This document shows, piece after piece, positions 18,729 through 25,157 of a DNA stretch of 64,000 nucleotides (position 1 is the first letter of the stretch; each line of letters begins with the position of its first letter). A program made the position numbers and the translations under genes. The DNA is taken from the NCBI GenBank assembly GCA_017460885.1, contig JAFUAB010000043.1:90063-154062 (forward strand), given 5' to 3'. Source of the stretch: Lachnospiraceae bacterium (GTDB taxonomy: Bacteria > Bacillota > Clostridia > Lachnospirales > Lachnospiraceae). The notes beneath the pieces are model-generated. The model was not told where the DNA came from, searched no databases, and worked only from the letters and a program-made list of their open reading frames with translations.

Positions 18729-20588
18729 ATGAAGATGATACGGGAGCAGGAAAAGGTAATAGTCATAGACTTCGGAGGGCAATACAACCAGCTGGTTGCC
18801 CGCAGAGTCAGGGAGTGTAATGTATATTGCGAGATATATTCGTACAGAACGCCTCTCGAAGAGATCATGAAGATGCAGCCAAAAGGGATCATCCTTACCG
18901 GCGGACCAAACAGCTGCTATGAGGAGGGAGCGCCGACCGCTCCAAAGGAACTTTTTGAACTCGGAGTGCCGGTTCTCGGCCTGTGCTACGGAGCGCAGCT
19001 GATGCAGCAGGTGCTGGGAGGCAGGGTAGAACGTGCCGCGATGCGTGAATACGGCAAGACCGAGGTGAAGGTGAATACCTCCAGTCCCTTGTTTATTGGG
19101 ATCACCGAGGAAAACGGCACTGATCCCACGTCGGAATCCGGTGATGGCAGTTCAGCGGCCCATGAGGTTACGACGATCTGCTGGATGAGCCATTTTGACT
19201 ACATTTCCAGGCTTGCGCCGGGGTTCGAATCCGTGGCGTACAGTGACAACTGTCCGGTCGCCGCCGCTCAGGACCGCTCGAGGGGATTGTATGGCATTCA
19301 GTTCCATCCGGAGGTTCTGCACACCAGGGACGGCAAAAGGATGCTCTATAATTTTGTTCGCAACGTATGCGGCTGTGCGGGGACCTGGCGCATGGATTCC
19401 TTCGTGGAATCATCGGTTAAGGAGATCAGGAATAAGGTCGGAGACGGCAGGGTGCTGCTTGCCCTTTCGGGGGGTGTGGATTCATCAGTGCTGGCTGCAC
19501 TGCTGGCCCGTGCCGTTGGCCCCCAGCTGACGTGCGTGTTCGTGGATCACGGACTCATGAGAAAGGACGAGGGCGATGAGGTCGAGGCCGTATTCGGCAA
19601 GGGAGGTCTTTTCGATATCAATTTTATACGGGTAAATGCTGCTGACAGATATTACGTCCGACTGGCCGGCGTGGATGAGCCGGAGCAGAAAAGAAAGATA
19701 ATCGGCCGTGAGTTCATCCGCGTATTCGAAGAGGAGGCAAAGAAGATCGGTAAGGTCGATTTCCTGGCACAGGGAACCATCTATCCCGACGTCGTGGAAT
19801 CGGGACTTGGCGGCGAGAGCGTCGTGATCAAGTCTCATCATAACGTGGGCGGCCTGCCGGATCACGTGGATTTCAAGGAGATAATCGAACCGCTACGTAA
19901 CCTGTTTAAGGATGAAGTGCGCAAGGTCGGACTGGAGCTTGGCATTCCCGAGAATCTCGTCTTCCGCCAGCCTTTCCCCGGCCCCGGCCTGGGCATCCGC
20001 ATCATAGGCGACGTAACGGCGGAGAAGGTCCGCATAGTCCGGGAGGCCGATGCGATATTTCGCGAAGAGGTGGCAAGGGCTGCCGAGGAGTGGAGAGTTA
20101 AAAATATTAAAGGATACCGGGCAGCCAAAGAAATGGTTCAGACAGTGAGCGACGGGAAATCGAACGAAGCGACCCTGGATGCCTCAGGCGGAAATCCGTT
20201 CGATGAGACGGCTGGAAATGTTTCAAATACGGACGGTCGTGCTACGGCCGGCACAGGCGCCGGCATCACCTCGGATACTTCCGGACTGTCCGTTCAGGAG
20301 AAATTCGACAGATACATGAATCAGAATCCCGAATGGATGCCGGATCAGTATTTCGCCGCGCTCACCAACGTCCGCTCCGTCGGAGTCATGGGTGACGAGC
20401 GAACCTACGACTACGCCGTGGCACTTCGCGCCGTCCGCACCATCGACTTCATGACCGCCGAAGCCGCACCCCTCCCCTGGGACCTGGTCCAGCGCGTCAC
20501 CAGCCGCATCATCAACGAAGTCCGCTCCTGTAATAATGTGTTTTACTGTTGTGCAGGGAAGCCGCCGGCCACGATAGAGCTGGAATAA
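18729..20588 (+). CDS. guaA: GMP synthase (glutamine-hydrolysing), with insertions
   Basis: Converts XMP to GMP with glutamine and ATP. The class I amidotransferase domain has Cys86 (GLCYGAQ), His193 and Glu195 (FHPEV). The ATP pyrophosphatase P-loop SGGVDSS is at 247-253, and the dimerisation domain ends [16 protein letters not shown] sits just before the ATG. At 619 residues it is about 100 longer than usual. About 20 residues are added near 127-146, and a Gly/Ser/Thr/Asn-rich block is added at about 451-539, between the EEVARA helix and QYFAALTN. The last segment before KPPATIELE ([12 protein letters not shown]) is diverged and its codons differ from the preceding ones, as expected beside an integration site. 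Confidence 0.95.
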
Positions 20589-20590
20589 TG
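20574..20590 (+). repeat. Left attachment-like repeat at guaA 3' end
   Basis: ATAGAGCTGGAATAATG spans the last codons and stop of guaA (encoding IELE-stop). It recurs with one mismatch at 24595-24611. The guaA 3' end is a known integration site for genomic islands (core like GAGTGGGAATAA), so this is read as one end of an inserted element. Confidence 0.75.
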
Positions 20591-20610
20591 TACATTGTCA
20601 TAGGGCAAAG

Positions 20611-20636
20611 CAGTTTATCCTCCAAGAGGCAAACTG
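20611..20636. other. Small hairpin after guaA
   Basis: CAGTTT and AAACTG enclose an inner CCTC-caa-GAGG stem. There is no T-run, and it lies just inside the proposed island. Confidence 0.35.
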
Positions 20637-20670
20637 TCTTAGCCTGTAAGAATTAAATAGTACATAAGTA

Positions 20671-20724
20671 ACAGACCTTGAAAAGGACTCCACAATCGTC
20701 TTTCCAAGGTCTGTTCTTTTGTTT
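20671..20724 (+). terminator. Intrinsic terminator after guaA
   Basis: A long stem begins ACAGACCTTG (20671-20680) and pairs with CAAGGTCTGT (20705-20714), with further inner pairing. It is followed by ttcttttgttt. It now terminates guaA but lies inside the proposed island. Confidence 0.8.
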
Positions 20725-20822
20725 ATTAATCCTTGTAGTATAAGGCGTTGATGGATTTATGACTCTGGAGTTAGAGTCTTTTACAGATAACCATTAAGAA
20801 GTATTATGGGTACTCTTTATCT

Positions 20823-21593
20823 ATGGGTGGAGGATATGATTACTTTTGTTTGAGTGATGCAGAAAAGGAATACTGGACTTCAAATGAGGCGAAGATTCCG
20901 AAGCCCTTTGTGTGGAAAACAAATTATGGCTTGTATTCAATGCGTGCGAATATCTCTGCTTCTATGACGCTTGCGATATTCTTGATCGGGATCTGTCTGT
21001 CTGGGATATATGCCGGAGAACTGAGCCATCGAACGGAGGACTTAATCCTTTGTACAAAAACAGGCAAAGAAACGATAGCAGCAGCAAAATTGATCTCAGG
21101 AGGCCTTTTTTCTGCCGTAGTGGGAGGGATATTGTTTATTGCCGTAAACTCTCCTCATGTCATTTTTAATGGGTTCAACGGCTGGGATACTGCATGTCAG
21201 CTTATCATTCCATTTACGTCCTACCCATATACATCAGGGAAGATGGTGCTTGTTTGTTTTGGGGTCTATATGTTGGCTTCGGTATTGGCGGGTGCAATTG
21301 CTATGTTTCTGTCCTGTGTTCTAAAGAATATGGTGGCATCTGCAGGAGTAATCTGTGGAACTGTGTTTGTTGATCTGTTCTTTACAATCCCACACAGGTT
21401 CCGTGTTCTTTCGCAGATGCGATTTCTTACTCCGATACAGGTTCTTATCAATGGCTCCATGACGGATCCAAGGCTTGTTCATATAGGTGAGCATTTTTTG
21501 GGGACATATCAGACCGCTGCAATTCTCTATGTTGTTCTGATCTGCGTGTTCTGCATGTTGACATACCAGGCTTATATGAGAGTGAAGCGATAA
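20823..21593 (+). pseudogene. N-terminally truncated ABC-2 type permease
   Basis: The 256 visible residues hold about six hydrophobic segments (near 45-65, 93-110, 137-160, 165-185, 235-252), as in ABC-2 type permeases. Protein-like sequence (for example KKYYGYSLS) continues in frame upstream of the first ATG to a TAG at 20772-20774 without any usable start or ribosome site, so the original N-terminus and first helix are missing. No ATPase partner is nearby. AT-rich codon use differs from guaA. It is probably a remnant carried by the island. Confidence 0.6.
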
Positions 21594-21628
21594 GAAGAGT
21601 AGCAATATAGTCGTGGTATGATGGAAAA

Positions 21629-21651
21629 GGGAGCGATAGTATTTCGCTCCC
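21629..21651. terminator. Hairpin between convergent remnants
   Basis: Perfect eight-base arms GGGAGCGA / TCGCTCCC with a seven-base loop. It has an AAAA on its left, giving a short T-run on the minus strand. It probably ends the minus-strand gene and perhaps both. Confidence 0.6.
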
Positions 21652-21679
21652 TCCTGCCTACAAATTCTGATAAAGCAGA

Positions 21680-22429
21680 TTACTTTTTGATGAGTTCCTC
21701 CGCCATAGAGAACAGATCGTCAGCTGATACATCATCATTTGTGAAAATGAGATAGCGTATCCCGTCCTTTGCAAAGGACGCATTGCTGAAGAAGTATGTT
21801 TCTTTATCGCCGCCGTAGCTTACAAAGAAATGATCATCTTTTTCCTTGCGCTCCTGTACCGATGTTTCAAGGGGTTCATCCTCATTGGGGAGAATGAGAT
21901 ATTCATCGTAGTTGAATGCGACGGTAATGCCGTCTGTGGTACGGGTTTCGGTAGGAGTACGATCTTCATCATCCGATATGTTGTATGACAGGGTGAGATT
22001 TACTATACCACCGTCAGCGTTTTTATATACGGCACGAAGGTCATCCCACTTACCAATAGTATTGCCAGCTTCGTCCTTTCCGCTGACATTTACGGTATTT
22101 CCGCCGTCAAAAACATAATCGTCACCTAACGAATCCGGAAACTCCGGCATCTTAACATCCGTGGTTGTCTGAACACCGTCGGTAGCATCGTTCATCTCTA
22201 TTACGGATGTGTAATCATAAGCTCCCCTGGAGCTTGCCTCGTAGGAAATGATCTTTGATGCGGCAAATAGCATCAGGTGATCTGGTGAAAGTCTGTGAGA
22301 AAGAGCTGAAGTAGATTTCGGGATATTTTTACAAGAACTAAATGATAACATGTAAATTAACACGTAAATATACTTGCGCATTGGTTTTTGTGTTGTATTA
22401 TAAGTGTAAATTTGTAGCAGAAGAATCAA
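21680..22429 (-). CDS. Uncharacterised protein, possibly a decayed anti-sigma or DUF4367-like gene
   Basis: The C-terminal 190 residues look like a soluble beta-rich extracytoplasmic domain (ITVAFNYDEYLILP, THHF-like FFVSYGGDKETYFF, and the ending YLIFTNDDVSADDLFSMAEELI), resembling the C-terminal domain of DUF4367 and anti-sigma relatives. The N-terminal 45 residues are unlike a signal peptide, have no ribosome site at any of the four candidate ATGs, and overlap the divergent promoter of the antitoxin gene. The authentic N-terminus has probably been lost. The length is therefore uncertain, and it is likely a fragment. Confidence 0.5.
   Translation of the reverse strand: MILLLQIYTYNTTQKPMRKYIYVLIYMLSFSSCKNIPKSTSALSHRLSPDHLMLFAASKIISYEASSRGAYDYTSVIEMNDATDGVQTTTDVKMPEFPDSLGDDYVFDGGNTVNVSGKDEAGNTIGKWDDLRAVYKNADGGIVNLTLSYNISDDEDRTPTETRTTDGITVAFNYDEYLILPNEDEPLETSVQERKEKDDHFFVSYGGDKETYFFSNASFAKDGIRYLIFTNDDVSADDLFSMAEELIKK
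22374..22401 (+). promoter_or_regulatory. Promoter of the Phd-like antitoxin gene
   Basis: TTGCGC (22374-22379) and TATTAT (22396-22401) have a 16-base spacer. TGTAAATT occurs at 22351 and 22406 on either side and could be antitoxin operator half-sites. Confidence 0.4.
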
Positions 22430-22446
22430 TGGATGGAGGTGTCAAT

Positions 22447-22707
22447 ATGCCGAGTATAATGCCGATTTCGGACTTGAGGAATTATACAGAAGTCCTTAAG
22501 GAAGTTGATAGTAAAAATCGCGTTTATCTTACAAGAAACGGTCATGGTGCATATACGATCATGACGGTGGCTGAAGCTGATGAGTTGGACAGGATCAGAG
22601 CTGCTAGAGCACTTGCTACAGATCTGCGAAGAGCTGAAGATCGGGCTAACCGGGAAGGCTGGATTGATGCGGATGACTTTGACCGGGAGATGGGGATCAT
22701 AGATTGA
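22447..22707 (+). CDS. Phd/YefM family antitoxin, apparently orphan
   Basis: An 86-residue antitoxin that should bind its own promoter and, normally, neutralise a RelE/ParE or Doc toxin. The N-terminal PISDLRNYTEVLKEVD and the VYLTRNGHGAYTIMTV strand are typical of the Phd/YefM fold. The acidic helical C-terminus is the usual toxin-binding tail. The start at 22447 is chosen because GGAGG lies seven bases upstream. The toxin expected immediately downstream is absent; only a short Lys/Glu-rich open frame without a start follows. It is probably a relic of a toxin-antitoxin pair. Confidence 0.85.
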   Translation: MPSIMPISDLRNYTEVLKEVDSKNRVYLTRNGHGAYTIMTVAEADELDRIRAARALATDLRRAEDRANREGWIDADDFDREMGIID

Positions 22708-22867
22708 AGAAATTTATGCTGCTAAGATTCGTGAAAAGAAAGCTGAAGAAAAACGTGCCAAAGAAAAGATGCAGGAAAAAAAGCGAGCACTTAAGCAAAA
22801 GGAAAAACTAGAGGAGAAGAAATTAGAAATTAAAGAGGAATGTTTAGGTTTTAATAAATACGGCTGA
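22703..22867 (+). pseudogene. Lys/Glu-rich C-terminal coding remnant
   Basis: An open frame without a proper start reads EEIYAAKIREKKAEEK and continues as a strongly helical charged tail ending LGFNKYG. The stop is at 22865-22867. Only an internal ATG (22769) exists, with no ribosome site. This looks like the end of a larger mobile-element protein fused by deletion to the antitoxin stop. I do not recognise the parent. Confidence 0.35.
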
Positions 22868-22892
22868 GTGGTACTACCATTCATTATATAAC

Positions 22893-22940
22893 AGCTCTCG
22901 GACTGGAATGTAACATTTCCACGAAGAGAGCTATTTCTTT
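22893..22940 (+). terminator. Intrinsic terminator after the antitoxin remnant
   Basis: AGCTCTC (22893-22899) pairs with GAGAGCT (22926-22932), with inner GGAATG/CATTTCC pairing, followed by atttcttt. Confidence 0.6.
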
Positions 22941-22996
22941 GCAGATGGTTGTATGGAAAGCGAAAGACACTGAAAATGTTTGCAGATTCATATAAT

Positions 22997-23047
22997 ATAA
23001 GTGACAAAAAATGTCACTTATATTATAATAATGTCACTTATGAAAAA
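22997..23047 (+). promoter_or_regulatory. Promoter with operator-like repeats before the AlbA-type regulator
   Basis: GTGACA (23001-23006) and TATAAT (23024-23029) form a promoter with a 17-base spacer. It is covered by a perfect inverted repeat, ATAAGTGACA (22997-23006) and TGTCACTTAT (23012-23021). A third TGTCACTTAT is at 23032-23041, exactly 20 bases after the second. The geometry suggests autoregulation by the downstream winged-helix protein. Confidence 0.65.
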
Positions 23048-23059
23048 TGAGGTGCTGAA

Positions 23060-24412
23060 ATGAATCTTGGAAAAGAGACTGAGACGCTTGAGTTTAAGAA
23101 ATCTACTGGTGAGATAAAAGAAGGAATGGTGTCAATATCGTCTATCCTGAATAAGCATGGGGTTGGTACATTATACTTCGGAGTAAAACCTAATGGTGAT
23201 GTAATCGGACAGGATGTTTCCGAGTCGTCACTCCGGGATGTTTCAAGGGCTGTATATGAAAATATCAAACCCCAAATATATCCGGCGATTGATGAAGAAG
23301 TGCTTGATGGGCGTCATGTTATTAAGGTGGAATTCAGCGGAGAAAATGCACCGTATTCTGCGGCTGGAAGGTACTATTTGAGAACTGCAGACGAGGATCG
23401 AGAAGTAACACCGGAAGAATTGAAGGCATTCTTTGGGGCAAGCAAACATCGTGGTAAATGGGAGCGGGCAAAGTCCGAGGCTAAAGAAGATAAGGTTGAT
23501 AGGAAGACTATTAGATCCTTTTGGAAAAAAGCTGTATCAGTTGGCAGATTGCCGGAAGGGAAATACACCTGTCCTATAATTTTAAACCGTTATGGGCTGG
23601 TTACAGGCGGATATTTGACGAATGCGGGAGAGGTTCTGTTTGGTAATACACATCCCGTTACACTGAAAATGGCTATTTTTGCAACCAATGAGAAGCTGAC
23701 CTTTTTAGATATGAAGGTCTATGAAGATAACATATATAATTTGCTACAGATTGCCGAGGATTACATTTTAAAAAATATCCATTGGAGAAACGAAATTACC
23801 GGATTTGAAAGAGAAGAGATTCCGGAGATCCCGATAGCTGTTATCAGAGAGGTTCTCGCAAACAGCTTTGCTCATGCTATCTATGATAACAGGACACAGC
23901 ATGAAATATGTATTCATCCGGACATGGTGACAATTTACAGTCCGGGGGACTATGCAAGTGAGTATAAGCCCGAGGAATACATTAAGCGAAACATTGAATC
24001 TGAACTGAGGAACCCTAATATAGCAAGGCTTCTTTACTTAACCAAATCTATTGAGAAATTTGGAAGTGGTTTTAAGAGAATAGACAGTTTGTGCAGGGAT
24101 GCCGGAGTTAAATATTCATATGATAGAACAAAAAATGGCTTCAAGTTCATTCTGTATAGATCCGGGTCCATAAGTGACACATCAAGTGTCACTTATGATG
24201 TCACTTATGAAAAAAGACAGGCTTTAAACATTACAGAACAAGCTGTGCTTGCCGTATTAAAACAAAATCCTGCAATATCGCGTGAGGAGATTGCTGAAAG
24301 GGTATCAAAGACTGTGAGAACTGTACAGAGAGCATTGGTGTCTTTGACGGAAAAAGGATATATAAAGCGTGTTGGAGCAAAGAAAAACTCCACATGGGAA
24401 GTGCTGAAATAA
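23060..24412 (+). CDS. AlbA_2 (Schlafen-like)/RecG-like regulator with C-terminal winged helix
   Basis: The 450-residue protein begins with the AlbA_2 domain (ETLEFKKST at 7-15, about 1-120). The HATPase_c_4-like region typical of putative transcriptional regulators follows (about 250-375, with VLANSFAHAIYDNR and IEKFGSGFKRI). A winged helix ends the protein (about 390-450, ISREEIAERVSKTVRTVQRAL). GAGGTG lies five bases before the ATG. Family members are often found on mobile elements and in defence loci; biochemical roles are poorly known. The linker at 371-383 is encoded by copies of the same repeat seen in the promoter. Codon use is AT-rich relative to the chromosome-like flanks. Confidence 0.88.
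   Translation: MNLGKETETLEFKKSTGEIKEGMVSISSILNKHGVGTLYFGVKPNGDVIGQDVSESSLRDVSRAVYENIKPQIYPAIDEEVLDGRHVIKVEFSGENAPYSAAGRYYLRTADEDREVTPEELKAFFGASKHRGKWERAKSEAKEDKVDRKTIRSFWKKAVSVGRLPEGKYTCPIILNRYGLVTGGYLTNAGEVLFGNTHPVTLKMAIFATNEKLTFLDMKVYEDNIYNLLQIAEDYILKNIHWRNEITGFEREEIPEIPIAVIREVLANSFAHAIYDNRTQHEICIHPDMVTIYSPGDYASEYKPEEYIKRNIESELRNPNIARLLYLTKSIEKFGSGFKRIDSLCRDAGVKYSYDRTKNGFKFILYRSGSISDTSSVTYDVTYEKRQALNITEQAVLAVLKQNPAISREEIAERVSKTVRTVQRALVSLTEKGYIKRVGAKKNSTWEVLK
24170..24214 (+). repeat. Intragenic copy of the promoter operator-like repeats
   Basis: ATAAGTGACA (24170-24179), TGTCACTTAT (24187-24196) and TGTCACTTAT (24199-24208) repeat the inverted-plus-direct order of the promoter copy, with different spacers. 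The 16 bases TGTCACTTATGAAAAA are identical at 23032-23047 and 24199-24214. They encode SDTSSVTYDVTYEKR, a VTxx-type linker before the winged helix. Confidence 0.7.
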
Positions 24413-24594
24413 AAACATTGGAAATAGAGGCAGTGCATGGTACAAGGATTATTTATAAGAAGCAGTAAATGTTCCGTGATACCTTTTTGATACCTGTTTG
24501 TTTTGAAACGAGGAATAATCTGTCAAAACCGTAAAATATAGATACGAAAACAGCGGATTATAGACAATATATAAACCTAAACGGGTTTAATACA

Positions 24595-24611
24595 ATAGAG
24601 CTGGAGTAATG
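24595..24611 (+). repeat. Right attachment-like repeat (second guaA 3' end)
   Basis: ATAGAGCTGGAGTAATG matches 16 of 17 bases of the guaA 3' end at 20574 and also reads IELE-stop in the same register. It is read as the ancestral guaA end left at the far side of the insertion. Confidence 0.75.
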
Positions 24612-24650
24612 CCATCAGAATATTGATCGGCTTAAAGCAAGCTTATCCGT

Positions 24651-24680
24651 GGGATACGCTGTTTCGGCGTATCCCCTTTG
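24651..24680 (+). terminator. Hairpin, probably the ancestral guaA terminator
   Basis: Perfect nine-base arms GGGATACGC (24651-24659) and GCGTATCCC (24667-24675), followed by ctttg. It lies 40 bases after the second guaA-end copy, where a guaA terminator would have been before the insertion. Confidence 0.6.
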
Positions 24681-24731: not shown

Positions 24732-25157
24732 ATGTCAGGCGGGACAAAAGTGTCAAAAGAAAACAGCGAAACAAGACATAAAAACATGGTCTCGATCAAG
24801 AGCAGGGACACGAGCATCGAGGTCAAGCTGAGGAAAATGCTGTGGGACCGCGGTATCAGATACCGCAAAAACTACAAGGCCCTGCCCGGCAGCCCGGACA
24901 TTGTGCTCACCAAATACAGGATCGCCAAGATCGCAAGGAACATAGACCGGGATGATGCGGTCAACAAGCAGCTGATCGCCATAGGATGGACGGTGCTGAG
25001 ATTTTGGGGCAGGGACATACTGAAATACCCGGATGAGTGCCTTCGCGCCGTCGAGGAGACGATTTTTGAAAATGAGCTCAGGCAATACGAAAGCGATGCC
25101 GAAAGGCGCGAGGAGACCGGAGAAGACGTGATCCCGGACTCCGGTACGGAGGAATGA
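24732..25157 (+). pseudogene. vsr: Very-short-patch-repair endonuclease with internal deletion
   Basis: Vsr nicks at T:G mismatches that arise from deaminated 5-methylcytosine. The N-terminal half (RHKNMVSIKSRDTSIEVKLR, then LPGSPDIVLTKYRIA) and the C-terminal part (NIDRDDAVNKQLIAIGWTVLRFWG) match the family. The segment normally between them, holding FxxGxFWH and about 30 residues, is missing. The junction is at residues 65/66 (near 24926). The catalytic Asp of SPD remains but the Phe-Trp-His part is gone. Short ATCGC repeats flank the junction. A GTG at 24750 with AGGCGGG before it is an alternative start. No Dcm-type methyltransferase is nearby. Confidence 0.75.

Follow-up and report, generated by a model that had tools for sequence, protein, structure and literature searches.

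In the draft genome of a Lachnospiraceae bacterium (3.6 Mb in 55 contigs), a segment of about 4 kb directly behind guaA, the gene encoding GMP synthase, is probably the leftover of two mobile systems with a common landing place, the 3' end of guaA: a tyrosine-integrase island and a Tn7-like transposon. The window analysed here is a stretch of 64,000 nucleotides (nt) of this genome, in which guaA (18729-20588, plus strand, 619 amino acids, with GATase and GMP_synt_C matches) is the target gene and positions 20591-24594 are the insert. This reading is carried by a repeat of the guaA end on both sides of the insert, the architecture of the right edge, a family of transposon ends and its place behind guaA, the tns genes that follow four of these ends, and the absence of an integrase. 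From these observations we infer the recombination and transposition events and the order in which they would have occurred.

The guaA repeat and the right edge of the insert

The end of guaA, ATAGAGCTGGAATAATG at 20574-20590 (the left core, plus strand), recurs with one mismatch at 24595-24611 (the right core, plus strand), and over a longer span (20571-20590 and 24592-24611) 18 of 20 letters agree. A scan for the 17-mer with up to three mismatches found two matches, compared with an average of 0.19 in 100 shuffles, four of which reached two. The GC content is 0.405 within the insert and 0.497 across the remaining window. An earlier note, made from the letters of the window alone, had described this 17-base repeat as framing an AT-rich insert at the 3' end of guaA, and this description holds. 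Its statement that guaA is an integration site also agrees with passages of two papers, in which the guaA 3' end is a documented target of tyrosine-integrase elements (PMC5704250; PMC4701971). Used alone as a search key, the core matched in 88 of 299 genomes; being too short and matching mostly unrelated sites, it was dropped.

Testing the core copy jointly with an upstream arm repeat is a better test than the 17-mer scan alone. The last 12 nt of each host's own guaA were sought, with at most one mismatch, in 391,651 nt downstream of guaA at 78 loci, namely the window and 77 of a set of 80 guaA loci, those with a complete guaA end. Seven core copies were found; a tandem repeat of 7-9 nt is located 60-170 nt upstream in five (L108, L122, L130, L143 and the window) and is missing in two (L135 and L139). 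Thirty runs with shuffled cores gave an average of 2.3 copies, with an average of 0.13 and a maximum of one carrying the repeat. Loci L130 and L143 have common arms and a common distance and may be near copies of one island, so that there are fewer independent cases. The count of five in seven excludes three array regions picked by hand (G208, G108 and G253); once these are added, eight of 11 core copies in 81 loci have the arm repeat.

In the window, the arm-type tandem repeat is GATACC-N5-GATACC at 24478-24494 (plus strand), 121 nt ahead of the right core, and similar repeats precede guaA-like cores elsewhere by an equal distance. The right edge is a regular right attachment site (attR) with the structure of guaA-specific tyrosine-integrase islands, retained as it is in a cis-mobilizable element (CIME). 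The left side of the insert has the guaA core and no GATACC arm pair, which is restricted to the right end; in genomes G208 and G001, a GATACC arm pair is found within about 0.2 kb of guaA. Tyrosine integrases related to three integrases from arrays are present at 16 of the 80 guaA loci, and 15 of them start within about 3.3 kb of guaA. In G208, the clearest case, guaA is followed by an integrase (Arm-DNA-bind_4, SAM_3 and Phage_integrase) starting 186 nt on and by a right end that has GATACC pairs and a core; next come a 4.7-kb core-to-core unit in which no integrase was recognised and a third unit encoding both an integrase and a NikA-like mobilization protein. The window insert is laid out like the middle unit of G208.

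The earlier note had stated that no integrase remains, and the searches bear this out. Neither an integrase family nor transfer genes were matched by the four insert proteins tested against Pfam, and no PF00589 match of the genome falls within the insert. The genome has 11 Phage_integrase matches. A search with the G208 integrase at E ≤ 1e-20, without a positive control in the set, found none of them to be a close relative and gave matches in 0 of 7 genomes of the same genus. Thus, the insert has the direct repeat of the guaA 3' end that marks guaA islands and, lacking an integrase of its own in 20591-24594, is a remnant rather than an autonomous island. The variant core GAGCTGGA(A/G)TAA had further been taken as a sign of a different recombinase specificity. 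This was not supported: the right-edge cores of various hosts match the host's own guaA codons (GAGTTCGA.., GAGTTTGA.., GAGATGGA.., GAGCTGGA..), and since the core letters track each host's guaA they do not point to another recombinase.

The right end of the island (24460-24578, plus strand, 119 nt) is 99.2% identical to positions 6255-6373 of L195, a contig from another genus, and a 301-nt stretch around the 3' end of the AlbA-type gene of the cargo is 92.7% identical. The identity of the right end suggests recent sharing between genera. Contig L195 also bears the end sequence discussed in the next section, together with tnsA and a piece of tnsB.

Several side observations concern guaA itself. 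The GuaA protein has a variable insert at residues about 453-535, ahead of its C-terminal domain, and the guaA open frames of the genus span 558 to 631 amino acids. All seven genomes of the genus that were searched also have a second, GuaA-like gene that lacks the glutaminase part (G000:C42:4589-5515, L037 and counterparts); this second gene lies downstream of the guaA array in G084 and G085, and in G226 an end-like sequence is found behind it. In L135, a further 3' end resembling that of guaA, with no arm repeats, lies about 1.06 kb behind guaA and is perhaps a replaced gene end.

The left edge and the Tn7-like transposons of relatives

Positions 20596-20836 (plus strand), separated from the guaA stop by a 7-nt spacer (20589-20595, plus strand), appear to be the truncated end of a guaA-targeting Tn7-like transposon, that is, its terminal repeat. 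Full-length relatives of this sequence measure 277-286 nt, start with TGTC, end with GATA and have inverted sites at both edges. The copy in the window, which is 90.5% identical to a G117 copy (G117a) over 241 nt, keeps the left side of this terminal array and is missing about 45 nt of the right side, including the inner inverted sites. At E ≤ 0.001, the end sequence is present in 17 of 397 genomes of the family, 11 of them at E < 1e-50. In an order-wide draw it was found in 7 of 392 genomes, all seven of the same family and four already in the family set, and within the genus it occurs in three of seven genomes, only at guaA. Searches of the end against phages, plasmids and viral contigs, one of them with an exact 21-mer only, gave no match.

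A strict start pattern gave 21 copies, excluding G226, G127, G701, a second G108 copy and other weaker or partial matches. Seventeen of them start 6 or 7 nt behind a GAA/GAG-stop, with spacers of varying letters: ten behind guaA, six behind guaA-like cores and one behind a cargo gene (G478). The remaining four lie behind one common right-end sequence. Among random positions, only 24 of 6000 fit such a placement. The window copy, 7 nt behind the guaA stop, has the fixed position to its target gene that is typical of Tn7-like elements.

The earlier note had seen in the whole segment one decayed guaA island. A simple decayed island without a transposon would account for the core repeat, the arm repeats, the AT-rich cargo and the missing integrase; however, it leaves 20596-20836 unexplained, which is about 90% identical to ends behind guaA in other genera and also to ends followed by tns genes. 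We regard it as quite improbable. Thus, the insert, its guaA site and the core repeat stand, but the first ~240 nt are a Tn7-like transposon end and belong to a second system.

In relatives, the end is linked to transposition genes. Four copies (G004, G084 and two in G117) are followed by TnsA frames (98-100% identical) and by TnsB frames. In G084 the gene row is TnsA-TnsB-TnsC-TniQ, with Pfam matches to TnsA-like, Mu-transpos_C/rve, TniB/AAA and TniQ families, respectively. A search with the G084 TniQ found eight loci in 7 of the 397 genomes at E ≤ 1e-20. Three are directly behind guaA (G084, G072 and G143); of the others, two follow a class-II aldolase gene (G052) and a pyruvate phosphate dikinase gene (G269), respectively, and in three no target is visible in the stretch examined. 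The G052 transposon, 27,391 nt long, has the 5-nt target duplication ATTGA on both flanks and begins and ends with identical direct repeats of 294 nt; an older copy follows it. G084 and G004 have two direct copies each, 93-95% identical. As the G052 element combines identical direct-repeat ends with tns genes, the 286-nt sequence is best read, from such comparisons of sequence, as the terminal repeat of Tn7-like transposons, and solitary copies would be what remains after the interior of a transposon has been lost. That the end is a free miniature inverted-repeat transposable element hopping alone is regarded as no more than a possibility, the target duplications being inconsistent and the G052 element explaining the end. 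As a side observation, the two transposon ends of G084 enclose a gene with a flagellin N-terminal domain (L191 19117-20000), an odd cargo.

A single system could also be proposed, in which the 286-nt sequence is the left arm of tyrosine-integrase islands and the 6-7-nt spacer a variable overlap like that of Tn916. One G208 copy of the end does lie between a guaA-like core and a tyrosine-integrase unit, and variable spacers are compatible with a heterologous overlap. However, the same kind of layout, inverted sites at both edges followed by tnsA, heads a tnsABC-tniQ row behind the aldolase gene, with no guaA in the stretch examined; tnsA and tnsB lie at a fixed distance behind four end copies; and the end is absent from several guaA integrase islands, including the first island of G208 and, for example, the guaA ends L100, L122, L130 and L143. 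This proposal is therefore unlikely, and two systems are preferred.

Several points weigh against two systems or against parts of that reading. The window insert contains neither a tns gene, such genes being present behind the G084 end, nor a right transposon end, and a candidate right-end relic at 24430-24465 was rejected, its alignment scoring no higher than shuffles. Terminal direct repeats are seen in three of nine tns-bearing elements, several of the nine being cut by contig ends. Behind guaA, the end starts 6 nt after the stop in G072 and 7 nt in G143, the latter start having been placed by eye. The target duplication is exact in G052, and among six solitary full-length ends it is exact in one (G208a, 5/5), being absent or imperfect elsewhere: it is 4/5 in G085, 4/5 in G596 only with a 1-nt shift, across two contigs and by eye, and not found in G208b, G108 and G253. 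Among the elements with two copies, no duplication fits G004, and G084 fits only with a 1-nt shift. The estimated contamination of the draft genome is 6.6%. Finally, an empty site, in which guaA would be joined directly to the sequence at 24612, was sought among relatives and none was found, so that the exact insertion product is unseen; in G002, other genes follow guaA and the repeat is absent.

The lack of an empty site would also suit a native origin of 20591-24594, with the second core a chance match, as would the different arrangement of the right-flank genes in the same genus. There, the clpA/clpS and flavin-reductase segments match on contigs other than that of guaA. Against a native segment stand the arm repeat and core at the expected distance, the right end that is 99% identical in another genus and the low GC content, and a native origin is barely credible. 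In L098, guaA is followed at a distance of about 3.1 kb by a flavin reductase with 68% identity, a hint, and no more, that the flavin-reductase gene of the right flank is an old neighbour of guaA.

Cargo, hairpins and flanking genes

Between the transposon end and the right end of the island, the insert carries a small cargo. A remnant at 20823-21593 (plus strand) resembles an ABC-2 permease with its N-terminus missing, by Pfam matches that are all below cutoff; it corresponds to the truncated ABC permease of the earlier note. A second remnant at 21680-22429 (minus strand) gave no Pfam match and matches, at 38% over part of its length, a G478 protein encoded beside an extracytoplasmic function (ECF)-type sigma factor. 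In G478, the counterpart (L235 6208-7501) adjoins a sigma-70-type factor and has a copy of the transposon end about 2 kb upstream. An antitoxin like Phd/YefM is encoded at 22447-22707 (plus strand); no toxin partner was recognised in the insert, in keeping with the orphan antitoxin of the earlier note, but the score of 21 bits falls below the cutoff of 29.8. The predicted AlbA-type regulator at 23060-24412 (plus strand) is firmly recognised, with AlbA_2, HATPase_c_4 and HTH_24 (winged-helix) matches above cutoff. A description of the cargo as decayed is apt for the permease and minus-strand remnants, but not for the AlbA gene, which is an intact frame of 450 amino acids, nor for the nearly identical right end. 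Matches of the AlbA protein in PADLOC were only partial, and a defence role is not claimed. The insert as a whole was searched against plasmids without a match.

A palindrome at 22986-23032, ahead of the AlbA gene, is probably its operator; the two halves (22986-23006 and 23012-23032) are 90% complementary. Half sites of the palindrome TGTCACTTATA (22986-23050) recur near the AlbA 3' end at 24169-24217, and in the L195 copy the stretch between such half-site repeats is lost.

Two hairpins flank the cargo on the plus strand. The stronger one (20670-20715, -24.9 kcal/mol, z -6.1) lies in the transposon end, is followed by CTTTTGTTT and probably serves as the present terminator of guaA; a simple terminator scan flagged neither hairpin, and this role is accordingly put no higher than probable. 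The other (24651-24675, -18.4 kcal/mol, z -3.0), behind the right core, is present as the earlier note described; its proposed role as the ancestral guaA terminator is unproven, and it is a putative native terminator. In the test for conserved RNA structure of the end, two-sided changes affected 1 of 61 predicted pairs, sequence conservation being too high for such a test. To the right of the island, a gene for a Vsr-type mismatch endonuclease (24732-25157) scores below the NCBIfam cutoff; Vsr models are matched only by its first half (residues 9-65 or 12-65), so that the enzyme seems to lack its middle part.

Proposed history and known systems

The following history is proposed. A tyrosine-integrase island would have entered by recombination at the final ~17 nt of guaA, leaving the core at 20574-20590, the doubled GATACC arm sites at 24478-24494 and the second core at 24595-24611. 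A Tn7-like transposon of the TnsA-TnsB-TnsC-TniQ family, with a target selector that would set the transposon end 6-7 nt downstream of the guaA stop, may have left the terminal repeat at 20596-20836. The integrase and the left arm sites, as well as the tns genes and the right side of the transposon, would then have been lost through internal deletion, while the permease piece, the antitoxin and the AlbA regulator stayed as cargo. Island entry at guaA after the transposon would push the transposon end behind the right core, where it is indeed seen in G208, G117, G108 and G253. In the window, by contrast, it is guaA itself that precedes the end, which suggests that the transposon came later than the island or was carried within it. 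Having lost its left arm sites, the segment would not be expected to excise unaided.

A broader reading is advanced tentatively, with somewhat less than even confidence. A lineage of Tn7-like transposons in the Lachnospiraceae would land behind housekeeping genes (guaA, aldolase and pyruvate phosphate dikinase) and have long terminal direct repeats, each holding both kinds of transposon end, so that loss of the interior could leave solo ends, like the solo long terminal repeats of retrotransposons. The guaA end would then be a layered dock shared with tyrosine-integrase islands, and the window one such scar. One conserved gene end would be readable by two unrelated site-specific systems, the debris of one becoming the flank of the other, and islands called from repeats only would miss the second layer. 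If true, a TniQ family that targets guaA and has long direct repeats as ends would add a natural target selector, new in kind, that acts behind an essential gene, and past insertions could be traced by its solo ends.

In the open-access literature searched, no report was found of such a TniQ family, nor of guaA, integrase and Lachnospiraceae together; among the matches listed, none linked Tn7-like elements to terminal direct repeats or to miniature inverted-repeat elements. A word search of the main texts of two surveys of Tn7-like elements (PMC8649781; PMC10293859) found neither 'guaA' nor 'GMP synth'. The terms 'Tn7-like' and 'GMP synthase' co-occur in one paper of this literature, PMC8239412.

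The relatives of the window match Tn7 and Tn7-like transposons in having TnsA, TnsB, TnsC and TniQ/TnsD, in inserting close behind a conserved gene, and in showing a 5-nt target duplication (G052) and arrays of inverted sites at the ends. The target of Tn7 itself is glmS, according to a passage of a Tn7 survey, rather than guaA. Also unlike Tn7, three of the nine elements have long, near-identical direct repeats at both ends, each repeat being edged on either side by inverted sites. Judged by title and listing, KolobokP composite-like DNA transposons of animals (PMC9587614) combine a DDE transposase with the terms 'terminal direct repeats' and 'solo'; these are eukaryotic and unrelated, and serve as an analogy only.

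On the island side, the window shares its target gene and a direct repeat of the gene 3' end with the integrative and mobilizable or integrative and conjugative elements ATE-1, GIsul2 and ICE_SmiB6_guaA, as described in two papers (PMC5704250; PMC4701971). The insert differs in having no integrase, and the likeness lies in target and repeat. A CIME, as defined in a passage of PMC5704250, resembles the window in having no integration or transfer genes, in having att-like copies of a gene end as its borders and in lying beside sites where integrase-bearing relatives insert in tandem. The window differs from a CIME in being without left arm sites and in having a transposon end between the left core and the cargo.

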